Part shown: piece after piece, positions 3,321 through 61,335 of the stretch | How the letters are laid out: every line of letters begins with the position of its first letter | Numbering within the stretch: the first letter of the stretch is position 1 | NCBI GenBank assembly: GCA_030407315.1 | Contig: JALQPE010000603.1 | Location: 62,001-126,000 of the forward strand | Direction: 5' to 3' | Source: Asparagopsis taxiformis | Taxonomy: Eukaryota > Rhodophyta > Florideophyceae > Bonnemaisoniales > Bonnemaisoniaceae | Length of the DNA: 64,000 nucleotides | Made by a program: the position numbers and the translations under genes | Notes under the pieces: model-generated | What the model saw: only the letters and a program-made list of their open reading frames with translations | Databases searched by the model: none | Told to the model about the DNA's origin: nothing

Positions 3321-4380
3321 CAAGATAGTGCGCGAGTTGCTGGAAGAAAACTTTGTCTTCGTCTTGCGTGGTCTTTCGGAGTACTTGAACCCTGCTCATG
3401 GTGGACGTCCGGATGGACGCTTTGACGTGAACGACTTCTATACATACGTCCGTCGCGTGACTGCAATAGCAAATTCTCTGTACGCTGCGTATGGGCGCTC
3501 AAAGAGTATTATGCGCAAGTCATTTCTGAGCACAGAGATGGCAATTGGGTCGGTTAAGCAGCCGAAGGAGTTGCAATGGCATCTCACCAATGCCATTGCA
3601 ATGTATAGAGGGGACGACCGGAGCAGTGAGGTTCGAATGTGACGGAGAACCACGCGTTTACAGGATTTGGAAACGAACTTGAAAGAGTTTTTCAATCCGA
3701 CATTGAAGAAGAAGACTAAGGCTCGACGCAAACGCCGCCCTTCTGCTGCCAATGTGAGACTCACTCACAAGAAGCAGCGGAATGTCGTACATGAGCCTGC
3801 TTCGCATGGCATCCGCCGCCGTTCACAGCGACTTCGCTCGACGGGGAGCACACGCCTCGAGGAAGAAGAGCCGGTTGTGGTACAACAATCCGCCGGGGAA
3901 GAAGAACAGGCCGTTGTTGATAAACCCACCGATCAACAACAAGCCACTGTTTCCGGTGATGAGGGTGACGAAGACTCCGCCCGTTCCCCCGATTCTGCCG
4001 TTGAGATTGTCCCCCAAGATAACCAACGTGCTGGTGCGACTCCCTCCAACCAAGAATCTGTCCATACCGCTTCGGACGAAGAAGACAAACAGGGTGCAGA
4101 CGAGGGCCAAGTCGAAAGCAAGGGGGTCCGCGAAGTGACAATTACATTCACTGTTCCGGAAGGAGTGGAAGTCGATGAAGACGGTTACATCGTTCGTGAC
4201 TCCCCTTCTGAACACGACCTCCTGTTCGACGACCGTATGCCATCTCTTCCTGACGATTTCGAAGTCAAAGACCGAGCCGAAGGGCATCATCTGGCGCAGC
4301 GTCCCGCGGACGTCATCGCATCGGTGAGGGTTGGCTGTCTGCCCCCGATTGAGCTCAGGTTGTTATTGGAGAGCGTGTAA
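3321..4380 (+). pseudogene. 5' part of a dioxygenase-element gene, cut by CACTA and carrying two in-frame stops
   Basis: One reading frame (phase 1) runs from the CACTA terminus through 3640 (TGA), 4378 (TAA) and on into the 2OG dioxygenase frame at 4402-5784. The frame is never shifted, and both flanks of each stop look coding. The first part has a compact helical segment (VRELLEENFVFVLRGL). After the first stop comes a basic stretch rich in K and R (KKKTKARRKRR), then an RRSQRL-type motif and a long acidic E/D/Q-rich linker, as in many chromatin proteins. The start codon is missing because the gene is truncated at 3320. Either this is a decaying copy or the stops are bypassed; decay is more likely. 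Confidence 0.6.
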
Positions 4381-4425
4381 ATCGATGAGGAGGGCAGAGA
4401 GGTGAGGTATTTGAAGCAAGTGGCG

Positions 4426-5784
4426 ATGGACCCTGTGTTTGAGGGGCTGCATATTCCGGAACAAAATCGGGCTCGTCATCTTGTTTTGGAGATCGACACC
4501 ATCTATCCGATGTTTTTCGCAGTGTGGAAGATGGCTGCCAAGGCGATGTGTGAGCCTACATCGACGTTTATACCCTCGAGGCTGGACTTCGCCCAGGTTG
4601 CGCGAATGTCTACAAGCTGGAAGGATTCGTATGAGGCCGGCACTGGTATGGCGTACTTCCACAATTGCCGAACGGAAATCAACGAGCGAGGGTATACGGT
4701 GATGCACAATTTCGCGGATGTAAGCTACCTCGATGCGTCGGACAAGTTCCCATTTGACTTGGGTCTCATGGAAGAAATTCCTAACCAGGAATTGTTTCGG
4801 TACTTTTTGGGAACGTGGGAGGGGGAGGAGGTGCACAAGGACCCTGGGAACCGGCAGCTGTGGAGTCCCATTGTCAATACAGGGGACGATGAAACAGATG
4901 AGAAGAACCGGAATGAGGGGAGGGCTCGCTTCACGTCTACGCGCCATTGCCTGGTTGACTATGCCGAGAACGATGAGACGCATATCGACCGGTTCAAGTT
5001 TGTGACGCGGCGAGCCCTGCTGGATGTGTGGTTGGGAATCCTTGTCCGGCTGATAGGGCTGGAGGAGTGCGGTTTACCGGGAGAAAAACTTGTCATGCCG
5101 GCATCTGGGGGACGGTTTTTGATAACGGGAAAGGGGTGTCCTCGGCAGGTCCCACACAATGATTTCCCTGTTCCTCCTCGCGACCGCAAAGATCAACTTC
5201 CGGGTTACTTTGTTATTGCCAACGGAGATGACCCATTCCCTATCTGGGTGTGCCCAGGATCCCACAAGTACGGCTTTTCCAAAGCGCTGGAATTAGATAT
5301 GTACGCCAAGACGATGAAGCTGAAGAAGGTAATCGTTCCGCCACGTTCAGTCTTCATCGGCCACGGCCATGTACAACATGCCGGGGCAGGGCATGTCGAC
5401 AGAGTTGTGTCACACACGACAACGAGGTATCACACGTATTTCAGGAATTCGTCGTATCCGATTCCCGACAATTTTTCGTTTGGTTTCATCAGGCGGTTGG
5501 GATTCGAAGAAGTAATCGCCAATGCTCCGCGCCGGTCAGCCAGGCAAAGTCAACCGGCACCTGTCAATGTTCGCCACAAGACAGTTGTTCCCATCCCGGT
5601 CAAGAAAGATCGTAGGCCAAAGACAGGGCAGCTGGGAATGATGCGGATGAAGACGACAGAACGCAAGCCTATAGCCCACACAATTAGTGGGATCCCGTTG
5701 ATGCCCATTCTGCCGGGAGATCCTGAATATCAAATTCAGTATTATAGTGAGGACGAAGAGGAAGAACAGTTTTCCGACGGCTAG
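4426..5784 (+). CDS. 2-oxoglutarate/Fe(II)-dependent dioxygenase, transposon-borne
   Basis: From the ATG at 4426 the frame encodes 452 residues. The C-terminal half carries the double-stranded beta-helix signature: H244-x-D246 (context QVPHNDFPVP), then PGYFVI, a conserved WVCPGSHKYGF strand-turn, VIVPPRSVFIGHGHVQHAG with the distal iron-ligand histidine at about 318, and R334 in RYHTYF as the probable 2-oxoglutarate salt-bridge residue. Known relatives of this fold oxidise small molecules, proteins or methylated bases (PhyH, AlkB, TET/JBP). The base-modifying role is inferred from context only. A basic tail (RRSARQSQ) follows. The homologous N-terminal domain (about residues 90-235) recurs at 51577-52188. 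The same frame extends upstream through two stops to 3321. The element's right inverted repeat follows at 6057. Confidence 0.75.
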   Translation: MDPVFEGLHIPEQNRARHLVLEIDTIYPMFFAVWKMAAKAMCEPTSTFIPSRLDFAQVARMSTSWKDSYEAGTGMAYFHNCRTEINERGYTVMHNFADVSYLDASDKFPFDLGLMEEIPNQELFRYFLGTWEGEEVHKDPGNRQLWSPIVNTGDDETDEKNRNEGRARFTSTRHCLVDYAENDETHIDRFKFVTRRALLDVWLGILVRLIGLEECGLPGEKLVMPASGGRFLITGKGCPRQVPHNDFPVPPRDRKDQLPGYFVIANGDDPFPIWVCPGSHKYGFSKALELDMYAKTMKLKKVIVPPRSVFIGHGHVQHAGAGHVDRVVSHTTTRYHTYFRNSSYPIPDNFSFGFIRRLGFEEVIANAPRRSARQSQPAPVNVRHKTVVPIPVKKDRRPKTGQLGMMRMKTTERKPIAHTISGIPLMPILPGDPEYQIQYYSEDEEEEQFSDG

Positions 5785-7875: not shown

Positions 7876-8173
7876 GGATGCGGACATCCATGTCGAGCAC
7901 GGCGGCAGAAATTTCTGGGGTCGAAATTTTTGAATTTCTGAACCGGCGCCCGTCCTAGGTGGACTTAGACATGGCGGAAGTCCATCCCGAGGGGGACATC
8001 CGTGGTACTAGAAACAATGAATGTCGCCCTAGTAATACTAGACGTACTAGACCGCATGGACGTCCGGTTCAAGGCGGACATCCAAAAATACTGGAGAACA
8101 TGGACGTCCGCCTAGTAATACTAGGTGTACTAGAGGTTGTGGACGTCCGCGTCCATTTCCGAGAACACAGACG
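7876..8173. mobile_element. End of a GGACGTCC-repeat element (family G) inserted in a ParB-like gene
   Basis: Repeats of GGACGTCCG/GGACATCC alternate with TAGTA(C)TAG motifs. The segment ends at 8173 with CGCGTCCATTTCCGAGAACACAGACG (written in two parts: GGACGTCCGCGTCC, then the TTCCGAGAACACAGACG edge). The same edge occurs at 46540-46713 with small changes, as expected for two ends of one transposon family. It abuts the broken ParB-like gene at 8174. Confidence 0.6.
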
Positions 8174-25168: not shown

Positions 25169-25276
25169 ACTGATCCTATTCTAGTCTATTGATTCGAATG
25201 GTTTCTGGCATATGCATTGCTTAAGCAATACATATGCCAGAAACCATTCAAATCAATAGACTAGAATAGGATCAGT
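25169..25276. repeat. 108-bp near-perfect palindrome (copy of 1481-1588)
   Basis: Exact reverse-complement counterpart of the foldback in the left arm, including its two mismatches. It therefore predates the duplication of the arms. 25277-26070 has no gene. Confidence 0.85.
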
Positions 25277-26070: not shown

Positions 26071-27468
26071 ATGAAACGAACAGCTGTTCGGAAGAAAGGT
26101 ACACCTCGAAGAACCCGGAGAAGGTTTGAATCATTGTCAATCCCATACGAAAGTGGGACAAGGCACGAAAATGGGGAAACCCCGCTAGTTTCGAACGAAA
26201 CATTCGAGGTTCACGCCGATATACCGGACGAAAACGTCGGAAAAGCAACTGCTGAAGACGAGAATATTTCTAGTGGCAATGGAGAAGAGCACATTGCATT
26301 TTTTGAGGCTGGAAAAGTTACCAGAGAAGAAGAAACGATAGGCTCTGAGGAAAGCTCGGCCGAGAGCTGTGATGACCACGACGGAGAAGAGGCATCGGAA
26401 GATGACCGCGGACTTGTGGATAAACTGCTGACCTGGCCAGTATTCTCTGCAATAGTATTGCTTAGTGGAACGCTACGGATGAAACGCAAGGACTATGAAG
26501 GTAGGCGTGAGATGTCTAATTTCAAGCGGGACATTTCGGATCAAGCACCTAGCGACTCGTACATGAGGAAAGTCATTTTACCGTTCATTCTGAAAACATG
26601 TTTCCCACAAAGCATGGATACAACGTGTGAAATAGATGGAACAAAAAGCGGCTCTAGGCTTGGAAAGATGTCTCCAGGACTGTCTAGTAGCCGTAGAGCT
26701 CATTGTACTACATCGGTACGAGTCGTGCTACCGAGCACATGGGCGGAAAGGGATATACAGACCGGACCCATTCTGGACTGCATAAAGTCTAGTAAAAGGG
26801 ATAGTAGTGATGAAAGAGAAGATGAAGCATATCAAATTGCTTCAGAAAGTATTGAAAACTCTTTCATTGTCAAATGCCGTTCAGCTGTTCTGAATGACCC
26901 ATTCCATCGCATTTCGGTAAGTGCATCAGATCATGACGGTCACAAGATGCACAGAAAGGTATACGCCCGATATAGAGACGAGTTGAGGATCATATGTATG
27001 CCGACGACAAATCAAGAGGCCCTGGTGGCTAAGCTGGGAGGAGCCAGAACGAATCAGGGGAAGAACATCGAAACTGGAAAGAAATCTAAGAGCAGAAGAA
27101 GTTTTCCAGCAAGGAGTGACTGGAGAATAGAAGCTATAGCTTTTGCAATCGGAGAAGAACTACAAGAATTAAATATGGAAGGTGTGATAGGCCCGCAACT
27201 CGATGCAATGCAAGAAACCGAGAAAAGAAACGCGAGGCGTGTCGTCTCCACCACAACGTTCGACGGAGAACATTGCAACAATGATATTCGGGCAGGTGAC
27301 GCTATCACTCTGTTTCGGCCAAAAATTAAGTCTGACGGGAGCACATTCGAAGGGTTACTACTCGTGAACAGACATCTGAAGAAGGGACGCTCTGAACATG
27401 CAGCTATATCGCGAACAAATTCGGGTGAAAGACGTCCAGCTCATAGGAGCTCCAGACAAGAGGTCTAG
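26071..27468 (+). CDS. Orphan protein of the CACTA element, 465 residues
   Basis: The ATG at 26071 is the first in frame. The N-terminus is very basic (MKRTAVRKKGTPRRTRRRFE), then an acidic Glu/Asp/Ser-rich stretch to about residue 120. One short hydrophobic helix follows (LLTWPVFSAIVLLSG, about 121-135). The middle contains ILPFILKTCFP, and the C-terminal half is basic and helical (REFQ-free, EELQELNMEGVIGPQLDAMQ). I recognise no DDE triad, zinc finger or helix-turn-helix. The composition suits a nuclear DNA-associated protein. Intact here, frameshifted in the left arm (1-686). It converges with the gene at 29820-30628/55846-57369, which is the usual two-gene layout of CACTA elements (transposase plus accessory protein). 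The assignment is by position only. Confidence 0.55.
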   Translation: MKRTAVRKKGTPRRTRRRFESLSIPYESGTRHENGETPLVSNETFEVHADIPDENVGKATAEDENISSGNGEEHIAFFEAGKVTREEETIGSEESSAESCDDHDGEEASEDDRGLVDKLLTWPVFSAIVLLSGTLRMKRKDYEGRREMSNFKRDISDQAPSDSYMRKVILPFILKTCFPQSMDTTCEIDGTKSGSRLGKMSPGLSSSRRAHCTTSVRVVLPSTWAERDIQTGPILDCIKSSKRDSSDEREDEAYQIASESIENSFIVKCRSAVLNDPFHRISVSASDHDGHKMHRKVYARYRDELRIICMPTTNQEALVAKLGGARTNQGKNIETGKKSKSRRSFPARSDWRIEAIAFAIGEELQELNMEGVIGPQLDAMQETEKRNARRVVSTTTFDGEHCNNDIRAGDAITLFRPKIKSDGSTFEGLLLVNRHLKKGRSEHAAISRTNSGERRPAHRSSRQEV

Positions 27469-29819: not shown

Positions 29820-30628
29820 ACAACTTTCGAAACAGCCAAAGATATTTCACGCTTGCTCAATTGTACACCATTTCCATTTGTTTTCCTCCGCTTCCTAGCC
29901 CCTCCGTCAATGCTTCCTGCAGGCTTGTTTCAACCTTCTCCAGTGGCACCATAAAAAACTTCTTCGATTATTTTGTCCGGAATGTACTTGTTCTCCTTCC
30001 AGACGTTGAACGCATTCGAATCGCGCCCTAAGCTCGAGCCTTCCGCTGTACGGCCTGTACCCGACTTTTCCTTCTGAATGTTCCGCAGGAGAGACATCAC
30101 CACTTGGAATCGAAGCTCGATGTTGTTCTTCCCGGTGTTGGATTGGAACACATCTCTCTTGTCATTGCTCTGCTTCGCAAACATCATTGCAGAGAGCAGC
30201 CTGCACCCACGGAGGTCGTAGATTCCGTGGTTGGTGTAAATTGTCGCCCCAGCATCAATCTTGTCGACCAGCAAAGGTACCACACTTCCAAATACTGCAC
30301 ACAGAAAATTGTAAGAAAACGATAGTTCTGCTGACTGCGAGATGCGCAAACGGTCCCTGTCCTTGTCAGTCATCCCCTTCTTCGAAGTGCCCTGATTCTG
30401 CTGTAATAAACCATCACAGATGCCTTTCACACCCTGTAGTTCCGTTACTATAAACTCGACGCGACTCATCAGCTTTTCGATTTGCTGGCGTTGTGACGTT
30501 CGATCATCGTCAATTTCATCCATCCTCTCCCCAATACGACGAATTTCCCCAGTCACTGTCCTGAACCCCTCTCGAATAATCCCTACTAGGCAGTCATTTG
30601 GATTTTCCTCACGACGCTGAGATTCCAT
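29820..30628 (-). pseudogene. Truncated copy of the second CACTA orphan gene
   Basis: Near-identical to 56560-57369, the first ~270 codons of the 507-residue gene. A CGA-to-TGA change ends the frame at 29930 (232 residues), and homology stops completely at about 29820, where unrelated sequence begins. The missing part corresponds to 55846-56559. The two lesions show that C2 could not make this protein in full. Confidence 0.75.
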
Positions 30629-30944: not shown

Positions 30945-31318
30945 ATCAAGGCAGTACTTGCAGGCAGTACAATTCACTGCCGCAGCCAGTATATTTTACT
31001 GCCTGATTCTAATGCCAGGTCATTTGCCAGGGCAGTACTGTATGGCAGTACATTCCATTGCAAAAATCATCAAAAATCACTGCATTGCACTACTGCCCTG
31101 TGGTACCAGCAAAAATTACTAGAATTTGCTATCGTACAGTACTGAATTCTGCTACATACCGTACTGCCAGGAAATTTTGTATTTTACTGCCTGCGGCACT
31201 AGAACTGAAAAAATTAAAATAGTAATTTTACTGCCTCAGGCACCAAATTGCTCAGGCAGTGTTTTTACTGCCTCAGGCAGTAAATTTACTACATTTTTTA
31301 ATCTCTAACTCAGTAGTG
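30945..31318. repeat. Right subterminal repeats and terminus of C2
   Basis: GGCAGTA/TACTGCC units become TTTTTACTGCCTCAGGCAGTAAA near the end. The terminus is ACTCAGTAGTG at 31318. Nearly identical to 57690-58060. Confidence 0.8.
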
Positions 31319-32834
31319 TGTGGTCCAGATGCGTTATCCCAATCTCGTTGCGGCGCTCGGAATTGTTCAGCTCACGCAACACGTCGTCGAGAACAGGATG
31401 CTTCAGCGTTGCTATAGCCAAACGCGTCCACCGCCGGGCCGTGTTCGTTGAATTCATCATCCCCATGAACTGCGCCTCGAACAATGTTCGGATGACATCA
31501 GACTCACGCAAGTCGCCAGCGTTTTCCACGTTATTTGCAACAGCAATCGTACGGATGAACTGCTGGATGGACGACAAGATTCGAACCAGGGAGCGTTCCG
31601 TCAGTTGCGTCCCAGTCGTATGGTTCGACTCTGCGCTCTTGTGGATGATCTCATGAGGCTGAAGATCACTGTTGTCCTTGCGGCGAAGGTAGTACACATC
31701 CAGAGGCTGAGTAACCCAGCGCAAGCGGTTTGCGTCCTGTGGCAGCTTGGTTCTGTGCATACGGGTGAGGCGCGTGAAGTCATCCGCAATGCTATGCATA
31801 GCATTGAGACGATGCAGTCCGTCGATCACGGTCACGTTCGCATTGGCATGGAATTTGCCATTCTGGAACAGACGCGTGGCGGCGGACAGATGCGTGTTCT
31901 GCGACCTCAGAACCGTCACAGTGATACGCGAAGAGCTCACATACCCCACCGCCAACATATTGTTGCGCAGGTCCTCCACGTGGTCTTCTTTCACATCGCG
32001 AAGGGTCACGGCCGGTTCCACTAGCTGCCTCACCAACACAGTCGCTCCTTCTCCGACGTAATCCAACGTCACAAACTTGGGCACCGTAATTTGCGTCCCC
32101 TGCTGCTCACGAATGCTTTCCGCCACCTCCGGTTCGTCGTCCACCTCGGTTACGTCCTGCGTAGTAGCTTCGGTGACGTTGGAGCGAGCAGGGTGCTTCG
32201 TGCCTCCACTGGAGGCTCTGGCAGAGCGAGCAGGGTGCTTCGTGCCTCCACTGGAGGGTCTCGCAGAGCGAGCAGGGCGCTTCTTGCCTCCCGAAACCGG
32301 AATGGAGCGTACTGGATGCTTCGTACCCCCCGAACCAGTGATTTCGCCTGCTGGACCGGTACTGGGCATCCGTCCCGAGCTGGCCTGGTTCGTCGCTGCG
32401 TTGAAGTTTGACGCTGCAGGAGGGGTACGAATGTCGCTAGGGCCATCCTCCGCAGCGGTGCGAATCATCCGAGTATCCCAAGGGTAAAACGCCGCGGCGT
32501 ATGCTCCACCCATCGTCTCCGGCGGTCCCTCGGCGCCATCAAACATGTACGGGAACGGGAGGTCTTTGAACTTGTCCTTAGTCGCAATGTTGCGCACGAC
32601 GATGTAGTCGGCCTCGTCGGTTTCCGGCAGCTTGTGGTTGTGCAGCGTGCGCTGAAGGCCAACATCGCCACCAGCAGTGCTCACCGAAGCCGTCCCTATA
32701 TGTACAGCCGCACCGTCCACGTCCGCAAACAAGTCGACATCGACGCCGTGCTTGAGTCCGCGCGACTCCGCTGACGCGCTCACTTGATCGCCGCAAACCG
32801 TTGAAAACAAACTGCTGAAATGCGTATCCGCCAT
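31319..32834 (-). pseudogene. ParB/Srx-fold protein gene interrupted at its 3' end by a CACTA element
   Basis: The ATG at 32834 starts a frame of 505 residues up to the CACTA terminus; the few codons after it come from the element. The N-terminal ~165 residues show no domain. Residues about 168-218 hold repeats of SGGTKHPARS. The ParB core follows: VEPAVTLRDVKEDHVEDL, VTVLR, and VTVIDGLHRLNAM with DGLHR at 338-342. Then comes a family segment (KSAESNHTTGTQLTERSL) that parallels VSEVTVADNV in the 909-residue protein. Known ParB folds are nucleotide-binding DNA-associated clamps; a role in element maintenance or transposition is inference. On the far side of the element (minus strand from 23436) every frame closes within about 15 codons, so little of the C-terminus may be lost. 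Confidence 0.65.
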
Positions 32835-33119: not shown

Positions 33120-33345
33120 ATTACAGCTGTCAAGCTAGGCGGCTTTTGGGGCGGCTGCGAGAACCCCTTTATCCGGGGAACACCCTGATTTGAGTTAAAA
33201 TTTGGGCTATTCTCAAAAACATGCACATGTGAACATGTTTTTGAGATGGGGGTGTGCCGTACGGCACAATCGACCCGCTGAAATCAAGGTTTTTTACAAT
33301 ATTTTTGCTGCCCGAAATTCTACAATTTCTGGGCTGGCCAGCAAT
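33120..33345 (-). repeat. Left terminal inverted repeat (family T)
   Basis: Complementary to 38451-38698 over its whole outer part. The inner end stops at GGCCAGCAATGCAAT, before the GGACATCC segment that the other copies have. 32835-33119 holds the upstream region of the ParB-like gene. Confidence 0.75.
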
Positions 33346-35017: not shown

Positions 35018-38000
35018 ATGACGAATAAGCGCAGGCGCAACAGCAATCCGATCGTTGACGACGCAACCGTGCCAATTCTGCGCGAACCCGCTAGCCCTTG
35101 GGAGGATTCTAGTGACATGGGTACACGTCGAAACGTAAGTCGCGCCGCCCGCGAAACTACTCTCGCTGGCAAAGACTTCCTCCGCCTCTTGCTGGATTTA
35201 TTCGCCCACTCAAGTTTCGCAGACTTGACCGACAAGCCGGGAGGTTTCACATACGCAGACCTTGGCGCTTGGGTTGCGCAGGGCACGGAAGAACAATTTG
35301 TGGCGCTGCAAGGTCGACTCAGCATAGCCTTCAGCGGTCGTTCGAAGAATGCTGGAGTCGAGGCGGATGTTGCCGAAATCGTCATGGCAGAGATGAACGT
35401 TGAGCGAGCCAAGCAGATTGTTCGTCTGGCATTACCGATTGCCGAGTTTTCAAGACAGGATGAGCGTATCGGGCAATGGGTTGAGCACTGCATCCTTTCT
35501 GGGATCGTGCCGCAGACCTTCCTTATTGGATGTAACATGCTTCCTTCGCCACTACAGGCGCCGCAGCGCGGGGAACCAAGCGCCTTCGTTCTTGCTCCAC
35601 CGGAAACGTTCGAGGTATTGATGTATTTCCAAGCGTTGTCTATCATCCGAAATCACAACAAGAACCTGCCGCGTCGCCGAATAGGAGATGCGGCCGAAGA
35701 GGGGAACGAAACCGCACGCGTCCCAGCCCATCGGAAAAGCACTAATCGAGCTTGTTACGTGGTTCAAGTTTTGTACCATGCTTGGACCGATGTGGCCTTC
35801 GCCGCAAAGTTTTCCAGCTTCGAAGAGTTGATGGCGCCGTACATCATTTTCGACAGCAGTGAGCATTGGTTTGACGTGCTCGATGAAGGTCTATTCGCAC
35901 CGATGGAGCAGAAGCTAGATCTCTACCACGACAAAGCTCCCCTATCTCATCCTGATGGATATGGTGGAAAAGTAGAGACAAGAACCAGTGCGCAGCACAG
36001 TGCATTTAGGGACCTTGTGAGGAAGTTCTTCGACCGGTTGCAGTTTCTTATCGTCAACCCGGACCTGTACACCTGGCCGGAGTCCGACCGCTGGGGGGCG
36101 CTGGAAATATACTTGTCAAGCGGAAATCCGGACAAGCTGCCAGCGTACTTTGACACCCTCGACGAAGACGTTATGGCTGTCCTCCGCCCGGCACCACAAG
36201 CCGCGGACGCAGAAAAGGTCCCCAAGCCGGTTGATGACACTCCCACTCGTCGCAACACAGGAGGGAGAGGTTTGGTTCCGTCGACAAGACACACAACCAG
36301 GCTTCAACTTGGACCTGGGAGGACCAGTCTTACTGCCCAAGGGCCGTCTCCCCCGTCACCGTCACCCCATGCGACAGAAGAGCAGGAAAGTGAAGGGCAG
36401 GCTCTCGCAAAGGACTTTCTTTCGAAAATGAGTCAGTATTGCCGGGTGTACGACGTCCCTTTCGAAGATTTGGTCAGTGCCGACGAGAGCCGAGAACACG
36501 TGCCCATCACGGGCAACGTTCAGCTCATTCTGACTGATCCGCCCTACAATGTTCGTCGTAAGAGGAACGATTCCAACTCTTCGTACGACAGGCTAACTGC
36601 AGAAGATATGCAGGCTAGCATCGAAGTGTTTGACGAGCTGTTGCGCCCCGGTGGCCACGGCATCGTGTTCTGCTCCGTTTTGCAGTTCTACGAATGGTTC
36701 CATTACTTGGAAACGTACAAAGGACAGCAGTCAGAAGGCCCAACCGATGCTGCTGCCAGTGATGACGGGTCGGATGAAGAAGAGGTTACGTCCATGAATT
36801 CGGACTCCGAAGCATCGCAGCACAGTGGCGAAGAAAGTGTTGATGAGGAGGATGAGGAGGACGAGGAGGAGGAGGACGTCGTTCGGAATTCAGTTTTCTT
36901 CGTTGACGAGGTACCTCTGTTGTTTGTCCGACTACCTGGGCACCTCTATCAAATACCGGGGCGGAAGAGGTACCAACGCATGAACATAGCAGAGGTCGCT
37001 ATCCACTTCTGGAAGCGAGGTGTTCCGTTCAAGACCGGAAGCGAGATGGTGGCCTATAGGAACCACGGATACATGGACGGCACGTACCCGGCGTGGTGCA
37101 ACGTCACCATCAATATGCCCGCCATCGATTCGAATGAGATGGTGTGGCGAACAAGGAGCACAACCGGTGCTACGGTCAGAGTTCGTGCAGAGCAGAAGAG
37201 CGTCGCTCTCATGATGGAGTTGATCAGCCAGCATTCACAGCCTGGTGATATTGTTGTCGATCCATTCTCTGGCACTTTCGCAACGGGAAAAGCAGCTATG
37301 AGCTTGCCTGAGCACCGTGTTTTCGTCGGCAGTGACATGGACAAATTGTGTGTGGCACGATCGCTTCCAAAGCTGTGTGCAGTCATGTCACGTGTAATTC
37401 TTTCAAACAACACTGACATGAGGGTCACGACAGAAGCGAAACAGAGTGCTGAGAAGTTCTTGGCGTCCCCCTCTGTCACGATGCGTACGCAGAGGGAACG
37501 CAGGATCATCGAACCCCCACCTGGCCTTCCCCTGTACCAGAGGTTCCCGAAATATATTCGGCAGTACCTCTGGCAGCTGTGCCCAGAGTCGATTGCGTCG
37601 CACGAGCACATGGAAAAACCGGTACATTATTGGCCACCTTCCCTGCGCCGCTGGTTGCAAACTGAAAACCCTCGCGTGATGCGGGCACACGATTGTGTTG
37701 CGAAAAAATTGAGCGTTCGACCATCGCTGATTAAGCATCCAAATGCAGGAAGAGGGCTCTTCGCTGAACAGACATTTAATGTTGGCGACGAAGTATGTGC
37801 ATACTACGGAACTGTTGTGTACTCTGATATGAGCAAGGAGTCGATGAGGTTCGCGTACGGAGAGGGTCACATGGCGATAACGAAGGAAACATTCTTGATG
37901 TATGCCATCAAGCTGTATGCAACAGCGGAGGACGACGAAAACATCGAGCATCCAATTTGGATTGTTCCGGCTCCGTTCTGTTCGGCGCAGTTCATCAACG

Positions 38001-38221
38001 ACCCGCGGTATTTGCGAGGTGAGGACACTCCGGCGGAAGACACCAGGCGGATGGCCAACGTCGAGTTTGTCGAGAACTACAGCAGCGGTTCGACGGGGAA
38101 GAAGCTCAAGGCGAAGGACCTAGAAAATCCGAAGATCATTGTAGTACGTGCAATCCGCGATATCCGTCCGGGGCAGGAGCTCTACGTTCATTATGGGACA
38201 GCGTTTAGAGCATGGAATTAG
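35018..38221 (+). CDS. Beta-class DNA amino-methyltransferase fused to a SET domain
   Basis: Intact ATG-to-TAG frame of 1067 residues, no introns. Residues 1-480 form an unrecognised region ending in a Pro/Ser linker. A methyltransferase follows with motif IV LILTDPPYNV (DPPYN at 507-511), LRPGGHGIVFCS, a long acidic insert (about 578-620, DEEDEEDEEEED), and motif I VVDPFSGTFATG at 746-757 with VGSDMD after it. The order IV before I is that of beta-class N6-adenine/N4-cytosine enzymes of bacteria (CcrM type), and DPPY favours adenine. A SET domain ends the protein: GRGLFA (911-916), FINDPR (992-997, in place of the usual FINHSC), NVEF, and IRPGQELYVHYG (to 1060). It would methylate DNA and possibly a histone or other lysine. 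Both catalytic cores look intact, though the changed NHS motif makes SET activity less certain. It lies between family-T inverted repeats. Confidence 0.85.
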   Translation: MTNKRRRNSNPIVDDATVPILREPASPWEDSSDMGTRRNVSRAARETTLAGKDFLRLLLDLFAHSSFADLTDKPGGFTYADLGAWVAQGTEEQFVALQGRLSIAFSGRSKNAGVEADVAEIVMAEMNVERAKQIVRLALPIAEFSRQDERIGQWVEHCILSGIVPQTFLIGCNMLPSPLQAPQRGEPSAFVLAPPETFEVLMYFQALSIIRNHNKNLPRRRIGDAAEEGNETARVPAHRKSTNRACYVVQVLYHAWTDVAFAAKFSSFEELMAPYIIFDSSEHWFDVLDEGLFAPMEQKLDLYHDKAPLSHPDGYGGKVETRTSAQHSAFRDLVRKFFDRLQFLIVNPDLYTWPESDRWGALEIYLSSGNPDKLPAYFDTLDEDVMAVLRPAPQAADAEKVPKPVDDTPTRRNTGGRGLVPSTRHTTRLQLGPGRTSLTAQGPSPPSPSPHATEEQESEGQALAKDFLSKMSQYCRVYDVPFEDLVSADESREHVPITGNVQLILTDPPYNVRRKRNDSNSSYDRLTAEDMQASIEVFDELLRPGGHGIVFCSVLQFYEWFHYLETYKGQQSEGPTDAAASDDGSDEEEVTSMNSDSEASQHSGEESVDEEDEEDEEEEDVVRNSVFFVDEVPLLFVRLPGHLYQIPGRKRYQRMNIAEVAIHFWKRGVPFKTGSEMVAYRNHGYMDGTYPAWCNVTINMPAIDSNEMVWRTRSTTGATVRVRAEQKSVALMMELISQHSQPGDIVVDPFSGTFATGKAAMSLPEHRVFVGSDMDKLCVARSLPKLCAVMSRVILSNNTDMRVTTEAKQSAEKFLASPSVTMRTQRERRIIEPPPGLPLYQRFPKYIRQYLWQLCPESIASHEHMEKPVHYWPPSLRRWLQTENPRVMRAHDCVAKKLSVRPSLIKHPNAGRGLFAEQTFNVGDEVCAYYGTVVYSDMSKESMRFAYGEGHMAITKETFLMYAIKLYATAEDDENIEHPIWIVPAPFCSAQFINDPRYLRGEDTPAEDTRRMANVEFVENYSSGSTGKKLKAKDLENPKIIVVRAIRDIRPGQELYVHYGTAFRAWN

Positions 38222-38450: not shown

Positions 38451-38698
38451 GAAATGGACGCCCGGTGGATGTCCAGCTCAGTTGCATTGCTGTCCAGCCC
38501 AGAAATTCTACAATTCAGGGCAGAAAAAAATATTGCAAAAAACATCGATTTCAGCGGGTCGATTGTGCCGTACGGCACACCCCCATCTCAAAAACATGTT
38601 CACATGTGCATGTTTTTGAGAATAGCCCAAATTTTAATTCAAATCAGGACGTCTTCCGGACATAGGGGTGCTCGCGGCCTAGCTCGACAGCTGTAATT
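38451..38698 (+). repeat. Right terminal inverted repeat (family T)
   Basis: Inner landmark GGACGCCCGGTGGATGTCC, centre GCCGTACGGC, outer end GACAGCTGTAATT. Closest relative is 6057-6262, downstream of the dioxygenase gene. Confidence 0.8.
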
Positions 38699-38876: not shown

Positions 38877-40699
38877 ATGCCGCCGCGTATTGCGAAGAAA
38901 GCTCCAAAGCCTCCGGGCCTCCAGAAAACCCGGTCAGCAGCTGCTGTATCGAGTGCCCGACAATCCCGTGCGAAGAAGCGGTCTGGGCCTACCGGCAGCA
39001 TTGAACCGCGGTCCGGTAGTCGCAAGACGGACCGGCGCAGAACTGGGGATCCGCAGCGAGAAAGTGAGGAAGGAGGAACGGCGCGGAGAGAGATGGGGCT
39101 TGACCGAGGCAAGCGTGCTCGCAGGGACAGTGAACATCATGATGATGACATGATAGTGGCTCAAAACATGTTGGAATTGCGGCAGAGTGCTATGGCAAAG
39201 GTAGTTCCTCCCGGGTTGGCAGATGCGGAGGTGCTGCAGACGGAGTCCCAGCCGGGGGTTCCCGAGACACTGGAGGCTGTGACCCCCACTGCGCCAACTA
39301 TGCCGAGTACATCAGCCCCAGCAGGTAATGCAGTCAGGGACCCGAGGATAGCGGCAAGGGATGTTGTTTCTGAGCAACGTTCACAGGATGCCAACTATCA
39401 TCGGCGGTCAGGTGGTACTGAGGGGAGAGAGCAGCCGGAGTGCGGGCCTCGTCACAACAGACTGTCATTGGTGCCAAATATGCGCGTAACGCCCCCGCGA
39501 CGTCAGGCTATTGCCGATGGAGGACATCATAATCCCGATAGCGTGCGAGATGGGGGGACGGTGAGGGCAGAGAGGTTGCATCCGCCGGAATCCATCGATT
39601 TAATGGCGAGTCGCATCAATGCGCAGAAGAAGAAGATCGCGGAGCTGGAAAAAAAGTGTTTAGCCAGGACATAGCAAACAAGGCGCTCACCACGGAGATA
39701 GTTGCGTTGGAGGCTAAGGTGAAGACTCTGCAGGCGGAAAATGCCAGCCTTACTGCAATTGCGAGAACAGGTAGAATCAGTGATCACGGTGGCGGTAAGT
39801 CGAAAATACAGAAAGCCATTCCTGTGAAATACCTTGGAGTTCTTAGGGCGGTTGAGGAAAACCTGACAAAGTGGTGCAAGAACGAGACTATGGAGCTGGA
39901 CCCTATAGCGGAACAAACGCAGAGACGTTGGACTGGACGTACCATCGAGGTAGAGCCGGTAGAAGGGACACTTTGGAGCGAAAACGGTGTAGGATATATT
40001 GCTACTCCTCCGGGCTATATCATCAAGAATCTGCAGTGGTATACACCTTCGTACAGGGACGAGAGTGATCTGCTGAATGACTTGGTGCGACACGTACTGC
40101 GTCAAAGTCCGTGGTGTGATGTGTTTTCCGATGAGGAGCAGCGTGTGTGCTGTCAAGAGGCTGTGGCGGGGAGCAAGGAATTGAAAGTGAAGGTGACGCA
40201 GAAACTGTCCGACGTGATGAGTGCACGGAAGCGTAATGCGAGGGACAGATTGTTCGGTTCGCTGGGGTACACGAAATTAATGTCTAGATGCACGATGCTG
40301 ACGACGCGAGCTGAGATGGACGAGCGAGAGGATCAAAAGCGCGAAGCGTCTGAGAAGCTTTTGAAACGGGAAAGCAACGGTGATTTGGATATGGGGAGGT
40401 GGCGAACGGCACCGTTCTCAGAGCTGCGATACAGCAAAGGCATGGTTCCTGACAGCTTCGAAATGGAAGTGAATGGTGATGCATGGTTTAACAACCGAGT
40501 AGCTGTGAATGTGCTGGACATCTTCAGGGGTTATTCGATACGACCAGAACAAGTAATGGACATAGAGACGAGCATACTAACGCTGGCGCGCCTGGATGCT
40601 TGGCTAGTGACTACTGTGGAGTGTTTGGATGAACCGAAGGGGAAAGGAGGTGCACGGCAGAAGGAGTTTACAAGGCGGTACAGTCAATATGTGGGGTAG
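38877..40699 (+). CDS. Coiled-coil protein split by a -1 frameshift at A AAA AAG
   Basis: The ATG at 38877 opens a 265-codon frame (basic, Arg/Ser/Pro-rich N-terminus, RGKRARRDSE). Its end, INAQKKKIAELEKK, is the start of a coiled coil. The frame stops at 39672, but the -1 frame continues the coiled coil without a gap (IANKALTTEIVALEAKVKTL) and runs to 40699. The switch lies at 39650-39656, gaA AAA AAG in the zero frame, which is a canonical -1 slippery heptamer. Joined length would be about 606 residues. The C-terminal part (LDPIAEQTQRRW, FRGYSIRPEQVMDIE) shows no known domain. It converges with the Plavaka transposase gene and may be its accessory protein. The alternative is a simple one-base loss in an A-run. 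Confidence 0.55.
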
Positions 40700-41237: not shown

Positions 41238-44200
41238 TTATTCTTCTTCATTATCATCTGTGAACTGGTAATCAGTGTTGGTGTAGAAGCGGTTGAGATA
41301 GAAACGGTGGTCCGACCAGTGCATTTGTTTCGTAAATGGCTTGACTGGAAAGCTACTTCGTACGATGTGCACGGTGCCGGATATAGTAGATGCAGGAATG
41401 AGGTCAAACCAAGGACCACCTGCACTGTGGGATGCAGTGTCATTGCTGTCAACGGATCCGTTGTCCGGGTCCCATGTGGACCACTTTAAACAAATGCACC
41501 CAAGTGATTTTTCCACAGCGGTTTTTGGGGCAAAGCAGGTCATATACTGCACGAAAGCGAGCTCTACAGGTTGAAACAGGTTTGGAGACTGCAGGCGTAC
41601 CAGTGCCAGGACGCGCCCTACCCATATGGTTCTGTAGTCATCGGCAGTTCCGGAGATGACGACAAAGGAGTACTGCGATCTCTTTGCGGGGCCGAATGAT
41701 GAAGTTGCAAAGACGCGCTGCTGCTTGTGCCTCGACACGTTTGTGGGGCGAAGCATGCCACTGTGCGGGTCAAAGTCGTCGGCATCTGGGACGTACCCTC
41801 CCATGACGTAGGCGGACTTTACCACGGTGACGGAAATGTCCATGTCATGTATTGGAGGGCCTTCTGCCGTGGCGCGCAGTCTAGCGAGGGTGAGGAACGC
41901 TTGTGCAGCTGTGTCACCGAGTTGCTGGAATAGCGTTATGGTGCCAGACGGGAACGAGGAGTTGTGCAGAGGCAAAAGAGTGGCAGGATCGGGCTGTCCG
42001 TCGATATCTGCAACGAGGAGTGTTGCATCGGGCAGCAGGGAGGCAAAGTCGTGCAGTGCAACGGTGAATCCGTCGCGAACGAGTACTGCACCGTCTGTGG
42101 GCGATATCATGCGTGGGTTTCCCAATGTGTTGGATGGGGTGTGACCAGTTGGAGTGGCCAAGGAGAATTCCATGTGGCGAATAGTCTCTTCCATGGCTGT
42201 GGAGCGCCTTCGAGAGGTTTTCCTATAACTCTGTTTGAACAGAAGATGCGAGTGTTCGTAGGGGCCTGCATCGATGTGTTCCAGGGCGCCATATCTCTGC
42301 AAGTCACCGGGAAGATGGTCTAGAAGATGGAACTTGAAAGTTTTGAGACCTGTGGTGTGGAATGGGCCGAGGGTGGAGAGCATTGATTGTTTGAAATAGG
42401 AAATGGAGTTTTGGAGGCTTTCTAGTTCGGCGGCAGTCCAGTGCTTGATGCGACCGCGTTTCATGACCCATGCGACGAGGTCAGAGTATTGCGTGCAGAT
42501 GGAAGTGAGGGGGGCTGTATCTACTTCGTCACAGCATGTGTCAATGAATGCTGCGATGAAAGGGAACACCATGTCGACATGGTGATAGTCTTTGGCTGCG
42601 AGCATGCCGCGTATGCCGTCCTCCGTGAAGAGGCCGTTCAAATTGGTGCCCTTCTCACCCTTGGAGAAGTCGACATGAAGACCGGTGATATAGTAGTCGC
42701 GTTCGATAGCGGACAGAATGCTGTTTGAGCCGGCGAGGATGGATTTTTTCACCTTCTTGAAGGTGCGAGGTGTCCCGGAATGGGAGGCAGTGGTGGTGGT
42801 GAGGTCTGGGGAGCTGAGGCGGTGGACAATGCACTGTTTGATGAGCTTTGAGATGCCGAGGTGGAGATTGTGCAGAGGCTCGAAGGAGAAAATGTTGTAG
42901 GGGTCTAGGGGACTGTTGGTGGGTAAAAGAGCGGTCGATTCGAGGACAGAGTGTTGTTCGAGGAGGGAGAGAGCTTCGAGCGGAGCAGTTGTATGCTCCT
43001 GAGCGCTCTCTTGGCGTGCAGAGCGTGTATCATCGAGGGAGCGGGGCTGGTGTGGCGCGCTGGATTCAAGTTGAGTGGCGGGGATGTAGCAGCGGTGGCA
43101 GGGATGTGTGGTGGTAGTGCTGTTGCGAGTGCATGACAGCTCTTTGGCCTCTGGAAAGTCGCAGCAATAATTGGCTAGGATGGGAAAGCATTGGCGGGCA
43201 GTTGCAGTGGAGTCTGTGCAGGGGAACCCGGAAGAGAACGCGGTGGATAGGGACGAAAACACTTTTTCGAGTGCTTTATGAAGAATATCAATTTTGCGAG
43301 CGCGACTAGCAGAACTAGAGGTTGTCGGCATTTCATCACCGAACAAGGCGTTGGACGAAGGGTTAACAATGTACGGAAGATACCCGACGATGGTGAGGCC
43401 GGTACGGATGCAGTGGCGACGGAGGGGGGCGGAGAAGTTGAGCAGTGTGACGTGTATGGGGTATGCGACGATTGCGGAGCTCTTGAGGCTTGTGCTGCTC
43501 TTGTCGGAGTACACTTGGAGGAGGCCGGCAAAGGAGGAAGGTGTGGGATCAGTTTCCTCTGCCCATACGACCTGTGGATCTTCCGAGAGCTGCACGCGCT
43601 GTCTAGTAACCTGGTGCAGCGTTTTCGCGAATTCTGTGTGTAGGGGATGAGAAAATATTGCGGTGCCGTCTGGGGCGGTCTGTGGGGAGGGGTGGAAGAG
43701 AGTATTTTGGTCGTTAGCCAGTGCTAACTGCCTGCGGAGCATGTCGACTGGGTCGCGGAGGTACAGCTGTGCCGAGTACTTACCAGTTTTGTCTGGAATG
43801 ATGTGGCTCTTGTAACCTTCGGTGCGGAAATGTGTTTCGACCATGGAAGCGGTAACGTGGCGACATTCTTCTACGGTGCGAACGGCGCTGTTGAACTTTT
43901 CTAGGGAGAATGCGGGGTCTTGTAGGATGGTGATGACTTCGCTCACGCGGCCAGCGCCGGCCTTGTACTCGAGGGTTGTGAGACTGGCGGCGAGGGATTG
44001 CACGAGGAGGTCTGCGCGGGAGGGGGTTGAGGTTGGTGGCAGTGGAGCGTCACAGGGTGAGTCGCTGGAGGAAGCACGACCAGATTCTGGGTCTGGGGAG
44101 CTGGGTTGCGGGGAATCATGGTCGCCGTTTCGAGCAGGCTCATGGGTGACGGCAGGGACACGAGCGTTGTTGAAATGTTGGGGAGAGGGGTTGAAACGGT

Positions 44201-44279
44201 AGCGACACGTTCGCTCATGCAGCGCGAGCGCATAAGCATCTACGCAGTAGTAGAAGCACCCTTCATACTTGCATTCCAT
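41238..44279 (-). CDS. Plavaka/KDZ-type transposase, 1013 residues
   Basis: Intact ATG-to-stop frame, intronless. An N-terminal zinc finger (C3-x4-C8 ... H21-x3-C25) is followed by a Pro/Ser linker. Then come hallmarks of the Plavaka branch of the CMC/KDZ DDE transposases: VTLLNFSAPLRR...IVGYLPY (278-303, counterpart of the fungal IGNIPK.IRRKPS..GYLP block), YCCDFPEAKEL (371-381, first catalytic Asp probably D374) with a CHRC knuckle at 394-397, FSFEPLHNLHLGISKL (464-479), FHLLDHLPGDLQRYG (650-664), and EHSHLLFKQSYRKT (675-688, probable catalytic Glu at 675). Such enzymes cut and paste elements with CACTA-like or similar ends. The element limits could not be fixed. It is the only full-length DDE transposase in the window, so it may act in trans on the others. 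Confidence 0.8.
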   Translation of the reverse strand: MECKYEGCFYYCVDAYALALHERTCRYRFNPSPQHFNNARVPAVTHEPARNGDHDSPQPSSPDPESGRASSSDSPCDAPLPPTSTPSRADLLVQSLAASLTTLEYKAGAGRVSEVITILQDPAFSLEKFNSAVRTVEECRHVTASMVETHFRTEGYKSHIIPDKTGKYSAQLYLRDPVDMLRRQLALANDQNTLFHPSPQTAPDGTAIFSHPLHTEFAKTLHQVTRQRVQLSEDPQVVWAEETDPTPSSFAGLLQVYSDKSSTSLKSSAIVAYPIHVTLLNFSAPLRRHCIRTGLTIVGYLPYIVNPSSNALFGDEMPTTSSSASRARKIDILHKALEKVFSSLSTAFSSGFPCTDSTATARQCFPILANYCCDFPEAKELSCTRNSTTTTHPCHRCYIPATQLESSAPHQPRSLDDTRSARQESAQEHTTAPLEALSLLEQHSVLESTALLPTNSPLDPYNIFSFEPLHNLHLGISKLIKQCIVHRLSSPDLTTTTASHSGTPRTFKKVKKSILAGSNSILSAIERDYYITGLHVDFSKGEKGTNLNGLFTEDGIRGMLAAKDYHHVDMVFPFIAAFIDTCCDEVDTAPLTSICTQYSDLVAWVMKRGRIKHWTAAELESLQNSISYFKQSMLSTLGPFHTTGLKTFKFHLLDHLPGDLQRYGALEHIDAGPYEHSHLLFKQSYRKTSRRRSTAMEETIRHMEFSLATPTGHTPSNTLGNPRMISPTDGAVLVRDGFTVALHDFASLLPDATLLVADIDGQPDPATLLPLHNSSFPSGTITLFQQLGDTAAQAFLTLARLRATAEGPPIHDMDISVTVVKSAYVMGGYVPDADDFDPHSGMLRPTNVSRHKQQRVFATSSFGPAKRSQYSFVVISGTADDYRTIWVGRVLALVRLQSPNLFQPVELAFVQYMTCFAPKTAVEKSLGCICLKWSTWDPDNGSVDSNDTASHSAGGPWFDLIPASTISGTVHIVRSSFPVKPFTKQMHWSDHRFYLNRFYTNTDYQFTDDNEEE

Positions 44280-46539: not shown

Positions 46540-46713
46540 GATGTCGGGTCCTAGTATTCCGCCATATGTACTAGAGAAAGTGGACGTCCGCATCCAAAAA
46601 ATTTTTATTTTTTTTTGGACGCGGACGTTCATTTGTTCTAGTAAATCTCGGGGCAGACTAGGACCCGTACTAGAGAGACTGGACGTCCGCGTCCACTTCC
46701 GAAAACACAGACG
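46540..46713. mobile_element. Family-G element end
   Basis: GGACGTCCG repeats with TACTAGAG motifs, ending GGACGTCCGCGTCC and TTCCGAAAACACAGACG at 46713. Counterpart of 7876-8173. It directly precedes the C-terminal half of a ParB-like gene. Confidence 0.6.
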
Positions 46714-48596: not shown

Positions 48597-51326
48597 ATGG
48601 CTCAACAATCCCCCAACGCTTTCGACCGCCAGGTGCGCTCTGCCAGCCGCCGTGACAACGATTCTCCCACTCCTTCTCCCTCTCTGGCCCCCCCTGTCCC
48701 CATGGACGTTTGCGAAGCTGCTGCAGCGCTGACCCAGCTCAGCCCAGCACCTAAGCCCGTCCCCTCCCCCCCTTCGGCTTCCGATCCCGCGGCTGTCCCT
48801 TCAATCGACGCTGGCGTTCCCGCAACTCCGCTTCCGGCTCAATCTGCCGAAGCGGCGCCAGCCGTCGAGGGATCTGGTGCTCCTCTGCCTAGCTCGCCTG
48901 CTCCGGACATGATCATCGCGTCCGGCAGCGACTTGGCAGAGGATGCGGAGAAGGTCGATGATCACAACGCTCGTGACATCGTACCGAACAAGCCTCTCCG
49001 CAGCACCAGGCTGGCCTACCCTGGCACAGTGCCCATCCCGGTGGATGTGGACTACGACATAAGTCCGGAGAGCTGCCGAAACATTCCATTTTTCATTTCC
49101 CCTCCGGATGTTTCTCCTCCGGCAGTCGTGTCCAGGGTGGTCAGGCCGCATCGCGTTGATGAGTTGAAGAAAACGTTTCTCACTCAGGGATTTTCCGTGA
49201 TTGCTTCACGCGTGTCCGTCTGCGAGGTGATTGATTCCAATGCCAAAGTACGACTGCAATATGTCGATGGATCTCACCGAGTGACCGCGTTGAAGGCCAT
49301 TCTCGAGTCGGCTGGACCTGCTCCTGCGAAGGACAGTTCAGAGTGGGAGGAGTTTGTCCAGTCTGACATCTACCGTCGCTTTGGAACCATTCCAGTCGAC
49401 TTTCTCCTCCCACCGACTCGGCTTGGCCGGGATGTCTTCTGCTCCGAAGAAGTACTCCCGCTTTCACGGCTGATGAACTTCCACATCCACAATGTCAGCG
49501 AGGTAACAGTTGCTGACAATGTGTGCTCTGTGATGGAGTTCATCAATATCCACCGCCTGGGAAAGAAGAATATCGAGCCGACCGTTCAGTACATTAAAGA
49601 ACGGAAAGCGCTGAGCTGGATTCGTCCGAGACAGCTCGTGCGCTACGTCTCCATCGCCCGAGGTTTCAAGACCATTGAAAGCCCTGCTTTCAAGTACTGG
49701 TCGAGTATTCCGAACAGGCCGGAGTTCGTGCAGTTCTCTTCGACGGAGGATCTGGCTGGGTGTACGGTGAATTTGTTGTTCAATGGGTCGTTCAGGAGTG
49801 CTCCGGATGTGCAGAAGTGTTTCATCCTGGAGATGACGGCGCGCTACACTTGTAGCCGTCGGTCGGCCGGGCTGAAACCGTACTCGGTTGGTACCATTGG
49901 GCAGGAATGGATTGCTGGTTTGTTGGAAATATTCGGGTACGTGAAGGAGGTAGCCGAGTATTGGAACGTGTCGGATGTGTTGAGGATGCTGGATGGTTCA
50001 ATTCCGAGCTGGGGTGACCCGAGCAAGAGCTTCGACATTCGCTCGCGCGTTGTCGAAGTTCTTGCTCAGATGGTCCCCAAGAAGGGGTGCTGGGCAGACT
50101 TCCGTCCCAAGGAAGGCCCCCCCCCCGATGGTTACAGTTACGAACACATTTTTCCCCGTAAGAAGTCTGTCTTCGGGAAGGACGCCAGGAAAATGCTCCT
50201 GTGCGTCACTGGGTACCGCGACATGCAAATGCGGAAACGCTTTCACGCGATGTACCCAGACATCCCACATGCTGCGCTCCCAGCCACATGTGGTGATGAT
50301 GCCCCCATCCCTTCCTCTTCCAATTCCTTGCCCATCCCTTCATCCTCCATTCCTTTGCCCCCACCACCTCAACTGGAATCTTCCAGCAATTCCGAGGTTG
50401 CCCTTGTTCCTGTCTCTACCACTGCCGTGTCGGCATCCTCCCCTGCGGTGACCCCGGTCAAGCCGACTGCGTGTGGTCCCCAGGATGGCAGCGAACGCTC
50501 TGGTCCAGTTTCCCACGCTGGGACTGGTACCCCCAACCGTCCTGTCCAAGCCGCGCAGAAGCAGGTCTCACCGGCTTCGCAGCCTGAGCCTGCGACTCCG
50601 GCTGCCGAGCAGCACCCTGCTGCTCCGGCCCCCGGTGTCGAAACTTCCCGTTCTGCATCTGCTAGCAGTTCGGGAAGCTCCAGCGATGACATTTTCGTCC
50701 CTTCACCATCCGGTGGGGTTGGACAGAAGACGGTTGCGAGGATTTCGACGGAGGGCCCTACTCCCGAGAATGTGGTCGAGGACAGGTCGGGTGGACAGGG
50801 AGGTAGCAGTGCGAAGGACGGTACAGATCCTGACGAAGATGTCATTGAGGTCAGTGATTCTGCACCGTCCGGAGTGGAAACTTCTGGGAGGAAAGTGATT
50901 CCCAGAAGGAGTACCCGCCTGCAAGCGAGTCGTTCCGGTCGTGGTGGAACGGCGGGTGGTGCTATGGAGGTCGTCGAACTGGAGAGCGCCCCCGAGGATG
51001 CGGGTGAAAACTCCATCCTCGGGAAGCGTAACTTGGAAGCAGCTTCTGCGACGCCCGAGCCTTCTACCAAAAAGAGAAGGCTCGGTGAGACTTCATCAAA
51101 GTCGTCGTCAAAGAAATCCAAGTCGGCTTCCCGAGGTCGCTCTCGGGAGCCGGTTCTCCAGTTCGACGACGCCCAGGAGAATCCCATTCCCGACAGTATC
51201 GTCGATGAGAATGTGGCCGCCGTTCTCCCCAGCGCAATTGCGTCTGGCAGCCGGATGAAGTACTATATGGAAAGTACGACGGTGGAGACGGTTCGGGCGG
51301 AAATGAGGGCGGCAGCATCCCAGTAA
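48597..51326 (+). CDS. ParB/Srx-fold protein with chromatin-type C-terminal tail, 909 residues
   Basis: The ATG at 48597 follows a C/T-rich leader; the upstream extension of the frame lacks ATG. The N-terminal ~150 residues are Pro/Ala/Ser-rich. The ParB-like core comes next: RPHRVDELKKTFLTQGFSV, then VDGSHRVTALKAI (DGSHR at 224-228), LPLSRLMNFHIHN and VTVADNVCSVMEFI. The family's C-terminal domain follows (IRPRQLVRYVSIARGF, FKYWSSIP, FILEMTARY, EYWNVSDVLRMLDG). The tail is long, low-complexity and Ser/Pro-rich, with RRSTRLQASRSGRGG (AT-hook-like) and a nuclear-localisation-like KKRRL plus KKSKSASRGRSR. The frame is intact, unlike the other family members here. Nucleotide-dependent DNA binding is known for ParB folds; the role in these elements is unknown. 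Confidence 0.7.
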   Translation: MAQQSPNAFDRQVRSASRRDNDSPTPSPSLAPPVPMDVCEAAAALTQLSPAPKPVPSPPSASDPAAVPSIDAGVPATPLPAQSAEAAPAVEGSGAPLPSSPAPDMIIASGSDLAEDAEKVDDHNARDIVPNKPLRSTRLAYPGTVPIPVDVDYDISPESCRNIPFFISPPDVSPPAVVSRVVRPHRVDELKKTFLTQGFSVIASRVSVCEVIDSNAKVRLQYVDGSHRVTALKAILESAGPAPAKDSSEWEEFVQSDIYRRFGTIPVDFLLPPTRLGRDVFCSEEVLPLSRLMNFHIHNVSEVTVADNVCSVMEFINIHRLGKKNIEPTVQYIKERKALSWIRPRQLVRYVSIARGFKTIESPAFKYWSSIPNRPEFVQFSSTEDLAGCTVNLLFNGSFRSAPDVQKCFILEMTARYTCSRRSAGLKPYSVGTIGQEWIAGLLEIFGYVKEVAEYWNVSDVLRMLDGSIPSWGDPSKSFDIRSRVVEVLAQMVPKKGCWADFRPKEGPPPDGYSYEHIFPRKKSVFGKDARKMLLCVTGYRDMQMRKRFHAMYPDIPHAALPATCGDDAPIPSSSNSLPIPSSSIPLPPPPQLESSSNSEVALVPVSTTAVSASSPAVTPVKPTACGPQDGSERSGPVSHAGTGTPNRPVQAAQKQVSPASQPEPATPAAEQHPAAPAPGVETSRSASASSSGSSSDDIFVPSPSGGVGQKTVARISTEGPTPENVVEDRSGGQGGSSAKDGTDPDEDVIEVSDSAPSGVETSGRKVIPRRSTRLQASRSGRGGTAGGAMEVVELESAPEDAGENSILGKRNLEAASATPEPSTKKRRLGETSSKSSSKKSKSASRGRSREPVLQFDDAQENPIPDSIVDENVAAVLPSAIASGSRMKYYMESTTVETVRAEMRAAASQ

Positions 51327-61226: not shown

Positions 61227-61335
61227 GTTGTGGTATGGAGTGGATGATGCGGATAGCGAGATGGATCGGGTTGTGATGAATCGAAGGTAGCGGAGGTGTC
61301 TTGGAGTGTCGTCAGGTAGCGATGGGACCATAACC

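Follow-up and report, generated by a model that had tools for sequence, protein, structure and literature searches.

Fungal DNA transposons, PlavakaB among them, carry TET/JBP dioxygenases for which an anti-silencing role has been proposed, and SET genes occur in the HarbingerS and MuDR transposons of oomycetes (Kojima 2025, PMC12730594). In bdelloid rotifers, N4CMT joins a captured bacterial amino-methyltransferase to a chromodomain and makes 4mC (PMC8885841; structures 8s9m-8s9o). Fusions of ParB with methylases are found in phages and bacteria (PMC5512222). Here we describe a gene that, judging by its sequence, fuses a beta-class N6/N4 amino-methyltransferase to a SET domain inside a transposon of Asparagopsis taxiformis. 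The gene lies in a stretch of 64,000 nucleotides (the window) from contig JALQPE010000603.1, here C603, of a 141-Mb assembly. Marks on DNA and marks on histones are usually written by separate proteins, which have to meet; here both predicted writers sit on one chain, owned by a genome parasite and intact in dozens of near-identical copies. A screen of the open-licence literature by title and start of abstract, a weak negative, returned no precedent for a fusion of DNA methyltransferase and SET, in keeping with the preliminary description of this DNA, made from its letters, which knew of none. Nothing on Plavaka in Rhodophyta was found in the open-licence literature.

The TET/JBP transposons of fungi resemble the element in combining a Plavaka-type transposase with a putative DNA-modifying dioxygenase, but their termini are TGT..ACA (PlavakaA) or CATCA..TGATG (PlavakaB), and the accessible part of the account names no DNA methyltransferase, ParB or SET in them (PMC12730594). 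The present element, in contrast, belongs to a red alga, ends in CGTCTGTG..CACAGACG, and encodes a dioxygenase-like domain joined to a ParB-like one as well as the methyltransferase-SET protein. HarbingerS and MuDR also encode SET, but they belong to other transposase superfamilies, and the same portion of text mentions no fusion to a DNA methyltransferase (PMC12730594). N4CMT bears a chromodomain reader instead of a SET writer and, in the accessible portion, is not described as transposon cargo (PMC8885841). ParB-methylase fusions pair a ParB-superfamily domain with an adenine methyltransferase, as does P0050, one of the homologues found here (PMC5512222); in the element, the ParB-like domain is on another protein, together with a dioxygenase-like domain.

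A methyltransferase and a SET domain in one reading frame

The fusion gene (35018..38221, + strand) is open and intact over 1067 codons, as first described. Residues 501-776 (36518..37345, +) form the predicted N6/N4 amino-methyltransferase domain, which scored 56.3 bits against the curated Pfam cut-off of 26.7 for N6_N4_Mtase. Motif IV, LILTDPPYNV, is indeed present, at residues 503-512 (36524..36553, +) and not at 504-513 as originally numbered; motif I, VVDPFSGTF, stands at residues 746-754 (37253..37279, +), exactly where it had been placed. The domain shows a Rossmann methyltransferase fold in which motif IV is followed by X and I, and this order supports the beta class proposed at the outset. 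The DPPY motif suggests that the methylated base is probably N6-adenine; bdelloid N4CMT, unlike this protein, has SPPY as motif IV. Structural searches, the second of them confined to residues 469-794 and hence silent on the SET and N-terminal parts, related the methyltransferase region to CcrM, M.BceJIV and MboIIA at 12-20% identity; to our knowledge, these enzymes have neither a SET domain nor a mostly helical N-terminal part of 470 residues. Among phage families, phrog_67 DNA methyltransferase comes closest (E 5e-17).

The SET domain (residues 911-1060; 37748..38197, +) matched Pfam PF00856 at E 9.7e-7, with 29.6 bits against a curated cut-off of 22.4. It begins with GRGLFA (911-916) and ends with VHYG (1057-1060), the motifs by which the preliminary description had recognized it, and Foldseek matched this part to the SET structures of SUV4-20 and MLL1 (E 2.6e-5 to 5.1e-5), bearing that assignment out. 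The preliminary description proposed that one polypeptide would mark both DNA and chromatin; the SET domain has an altered NHxCxPN region, though, and may act on a protein other than a histone. The N-terminal part of about 470 residues is mostly helical. We considered a hidden ParB domain there and dropped it, since profile-profile comparison gave a probability of 0.15. Pfam found no chromodomain in the fusion up to E 0.5.

Relatives of the fusion

We searched 5.8 billion proteins, scored the 7977 candidates with most words in common, and among these found 49 homologues. The nearest is 98% identical and the rest are 25-37% identical over the aligned part. Precomputed annotation places both Pfam domains in 23 of the 49. 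The fusion is not unique: it forms a family of many copies, and other assemblies contain its relatives. Seven methyltransferase residues (P508, P509, R723, Q726, D748, G752 and T753) are invariant in all 50 rows of the alignment. In the SET domain, the GxG glycines G911 and G913 are kept in 44 and 46 rows, the YG glycine G931 in 48, N994 in 45, N1014 in 49 and Y1059 in 43. One homologue, P0050 (967 aa), has a ParB-like domain at its start and a beta-class methyltransferase without SET, and may connect the two fusions that the element encodes. Prokaryotic and viral collections gave matches to short methyltransferase stretches (at least 25 loci in one scan, at least 80 kept in the other), with no fusion among the matches listed, and were dropped as a source of relatives.

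The gene lies in a transposon with a Plavaka-type transposase

The preliminary description placed the gene in an inverted-repeat element bounded by repeats at 33153..33306 and 38526-38679. That it is transposon-borne holds; the proposed ends do not. Copies remain co-linear beyond these repeats, which, like a further pair at 34487-34579/38557-38649, are internal. A right terminal inverted repeat (TIR) of 34 nt, with 2 mismatches against the left one, occupies 46680..46713 (+), and the element ends at 46713: 16 of 18 right-end pieces have this terminus, with sequence diverging beyond it, and two (L146 and L164) lack it. The left terminus is present in five contigs (C2192, C2038, C2302, C1754 and C474). 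Of the other left-end candidates, neither the C340 nor the C350 piece has it, and the window contains no match to the C221 piece. Coordinates give lengths of 20.0 kb (C2192), 21.8 kb (C2302), 21.7 kb (C2038) and 21.7 kb (C474) for the two-ended copies. At the level of sequence, these features identify a DNA transposon with TIRs and a length of 20-22 kb, which encodes a Plavaka-type transposase and exists in many near-identical copies.

The C2302 copy interrupts a gene of which the window has an uninterrupted relative; the unoccupied counterpart of its target site is at 49548..49549, and a 2-bp AT duplication accompanies the insertion, where Plavaka transposons are expected to duplicate 2-3 bp. 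This relative, at 48528-51326 (+, 932 aa), represents a second type that is ParB-like by its VDGSHR motif and belongs to no Pfam family, also seen at 8130-8738 (-). The termini CGTCTGTG..CACAGACG match neither TGT..ACA nor CATCA..TGATG, and because they differ from the descriptions in the accessible part of PMC12730594, we did not file the element as PlavakaA or PlavakaB.

In the C2192 copy, the first 2.2 kb contain the palindrome GGACGTCC five times; the last 2.2 kb, taken from the window, contain it twice, and 9.1 kb of the interior lack it. CACTA-type transposons have subterminal binding motifs, and the distribution of the palindrome resembles theirs, a hint that the encoded proteins may act on the element's own DNA.

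Companion genes

The element reads, in order: left TIR, ParB-dioxygenase gene (-), methyltransferase-SET gene (+), ORF3 (+), Plavaka transposase gene (-), right TIR. The transposase (41238..44279, -; 1013 aa) matched Pfam PF18759 at E 3.3e-24, was scored in 45 copies, and keeps the same relation to the methyltransferase in all five contigs in which both were found. ORF3 (38877..40699, +) has a putative coiled-coil region, with Pfam returning only weak coiled-coil matches below threshold. It lies 1.44-1.45 kb from the methyltransferase in 12 of 13 shared contigs, the ORF3 listed for C340 being elsewhere. In the window it is split into two overlapping frames (38877-39674 and 39656-40699), with an open frame of 385 aa; other copies have 399-820 aa, often 539, 670 or 794. 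We scored 117 copies of ORF3 at 100% amino-acid identity over 347 aa.

The window has two pieces of a ParB-dioxygenase gene. The ParB-like N-terminal part (31305..32834, -) has a DGxHR motif and is cut at about 31319; a C-terminal, 2-oxoglutarate (2OG) dioxygenase-like part (3322..5784, +) is displaced and inverted, and has two in-frame stops. This rearrangement, which puts a left arm (about 3321-8173) 23 kb off in inverted orientation, spares the methyltransferase-SET gene. At the end of the displaced arm, 8150..8173 (-) corresponds to the left TIR seen in the C2192 copy (L158:838). The arm may come from the window's own copy or from another one. Elsewhere, the two parts are on one strand, 1154-1161 nt apart (five of six contigs, the exception being the window), and the ParB part points away from the methyltransferase gene at a distance of 1.9-3.3 kb (five of six, with C120 not adjacent). 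The left arm has the standard order in C2192, C2038, C2302 and C1988.

That the two parts form one protein is suggested by P0052, a natural protein of 1201 aa among the homologues of the dioxygenase part (P0052-P0055): its N-terminal part matches the ParB frame of the window at E 2e-27 and its C-terminal part matches the dioxygenase part at 39%. Among 92 dioxygenase matches, 55 are in an open frame of at least 1270 aa, a few with one stop, which is long enough for the ParB part too. The HxD...H...R signature of 2OG-Fe(II) enzymes (H1025, D1027, H1099 and R1115 of P0052), common to 2OG oxygenases generally, is invariant in 10 rows. The dioxygenase part reached no Pfam family and had no relevant match among PDB profiles; the Foldseek matches listed for its model are presumably 2OG oxygenases. 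In the ParB-like part, D338, G339, H341 and R342 are invariant in 5 rows. This frame had no Pfam or PHROG match in the window, and hhalign against P0050 gave E 4.8e-4 with a probability of only 32.

Copies in the host genome

We scored 43 copies of the fusion gene, the best-scoring candidates, on 43 contigs: all are complete, contain no stops and are 99-100% identical. The 1067-aa frame is kept in 30 of 30 best-scoring copies (the window and 29 fetched), which, together with the recurrence of both domains among the homologues, speaks against a chance reading frame. Pairwise, the 29 fetched copies differ on average by 2.21 synonymous and 0.81 non-synonymous codons, where the gene allows 2165 synonymous and 7438 non-synonymous changes; shared ancestry inflates these pairwise counts, and the choice by score leaves out broken copies. 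A genome scan for the SET family found at least 150 places. Ten had E <1e-10 and resemble host genes; the other 140 resemble this element in scoring 33-36 bits, and about 65 of the roughly 140 listed are in frames of at least 1065 aa.

The fusion element is one of several methyltransferase-bearing, transposon-like families in the host. Among the best 150 of 2605 N6_N4 methyltransferase candidates, frames fall into classes of about 1186, 1161, 1106 and 943 aa, with many equal scores. Contigs C224, C83, C497 and C421, compared by eye, show no SET beside the methyltransferase among the matches listed.

The host assembly contains light-harvesting complex (LHC) proteins (10 matches) and phycobilisome linkers (13 matches, of which three share a frame on C469 and may be plastid), which point to a red alga. 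A fungal host, which the Plavaka-type transposase had suggested, was dropped on the strength of these genes. Two contigs, C578 and C340, carry a phycobilisome-linker gene and the element together; with this and 43 copies on 43 contigs, a bacterial contaminant contig is unlikely. A scan of the host for C5-DNA-methyltransferases gave 0 candidates, with 10 of 14 control genomes positive, these ten being prokaryotes; introns could hide exons from such a scan.

Possible roles of the fusion

What might a transposon gain from such a protein? We propose that the fusion would reach the element's own DNA through its methyltransferase moiety and there methylate bases (N6-adenine being probable); the subterminal GGACGTCC palindromes are one possible place. 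The SET domain, meanwhile, would methylate lysines of the transposase or of nucleosomes close by. The ParB-dioxygenase would load onto the same DNA and oxidise, and so remove, methyl groups of bases or proteins. Together, the two proteins would set up a self-mark, by which the element could still be expressed, or be licensed to transpose, despite host silencing. We give this explanation as a whole, element-encoded self-marking by the predicted fusion and the ParB-dioxygenase against silencing, a probability of about 0.45. Within it, we infer action on the element's own DNA and chromatin, and anti-silencing or transposition licensing is the most likely use. A fuller version, in which the transposon owns a private epigenetic kit (a writer for bases and lysines, ParB-like targeting and a dioxygenase eraser) that ties an adenine 'self' mark to chromatin at more than 100 loci, we regard as doubtful.

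Several observations weigh against self-marking. The canonical NHxCxPN of SET domains is replaced by INDPR...NV, with an insert between N994 and N1014. The SET domain is degraded in five homologues (P0038, P0039, P0042, P0044 and P0045) and absent from P0050. The dioxygenase fold is predicted from motifs; this part was modelled at a pLDDT of 37.6, and the best Foldseek match of the model (E 0.046) is not significant. The left arm is otherwise arranged in the window and C430, and the C350 dioxygenase is in the opposite orientation. About 75 of the roughly 140 element-like SET matches listed are in shorter frames, down to 166 aa, which means that many copies are damaged or truncated by a contig end. 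The target-site duplication is clean in one of the four two-ended copies, the other three having no matching dinucleotide. A link between any of the enzymes and GGACGTCC is a guess, and with no C5-methyltransferase detected the silencing mark to be countered is obscure.

Other explanations have to be set beside it. The fusion might restrain its own element, writing repressive DNA and histone marks on its copies and so controlling copy number; writing on DNA and histones together would resemble the silencing partnership of bdelloid N4CMT and SETDB1, as given in the accessible part of PMC8885841, and restraint could pay at about 140 SET matches among those listed. The recent amplification evident from 43 scored fusion copies at 99-100% and 117 scored ORF3 copies at 100% identity speaks against this, and we consider it unlikely. 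Alternatively, sequence-specific DNA binding may be the main task of the methyltransferase domain, which would bring SET to the element, DNA methylation being weak or absent. Four of the 50 rows replace the motif IV tyrosine (Q in two, R in one, L in one) and seven have F there, and D507, kept in 47, is changed in three; because both positions vary, DNA catalysis is perhaps dispensable in some relatives. Yet DPPY is intact in the element, and D748, G752, T753, R723 and Q726 never vary; we rate this reading as distinctly unlikely.

It is more improbable still that the methyltransferase protects self from non-self, guarding transposition intermediates against a nuclease of the host, in the manner of phage and plasmid methyltransferases, with SET as an accessory. 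The nearest phage family being phrog_67 fits such a role, as do the bacterial ParB-methylase fusions of PMC5512222 (accessible part) and the ParB-like/methyltransferase fusion P0050. Protection leaves the conserved SET domain unexplained, however. We also know of no eukaryotic nuclease of this kind, which counts against it. We give equally little credence to a cassette carried along without benefit to the element: large transposons can hold cargo, and the SET matches in frames below 1065 aa would suit a passenger, but all 43 best-scoring copies are free of stops, amino-acid changes among the 29 are few, and the architecture is maintained at 25-37% identity in other assemblies.

If active, the fusion would be a natural dual writer and a route for bacterial amino-methylation into eukaryotic chromatin, and the element a test case for how transposons handle silencing where C5-methylation machinery is undetected. 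Were the private-kit version true, a transposon would own the eukaryotic counterpart of a modification system. Base marks of this kind can be read directly by long reads, which makes the idea testable.

Other features of the window

Positions 1-3320 and 23437-26757 are 3.3-kb inverted repeats, 99-100% identical, around 20 kb; they reflect a recent rearrangement or an assembly effect. A repeated open reading frame of no known type has two copies, at 29930-30628 and 55846-57369 (-), the longer of 507 aa, which are 94% identical over 300 nt. Remains of a Copia-like retrotransposon, with integrase- and gag-like frames judged by eye, occupy 58244-61568 (-), and a tandem array with a 35-bp unit lies at 12448-13002.

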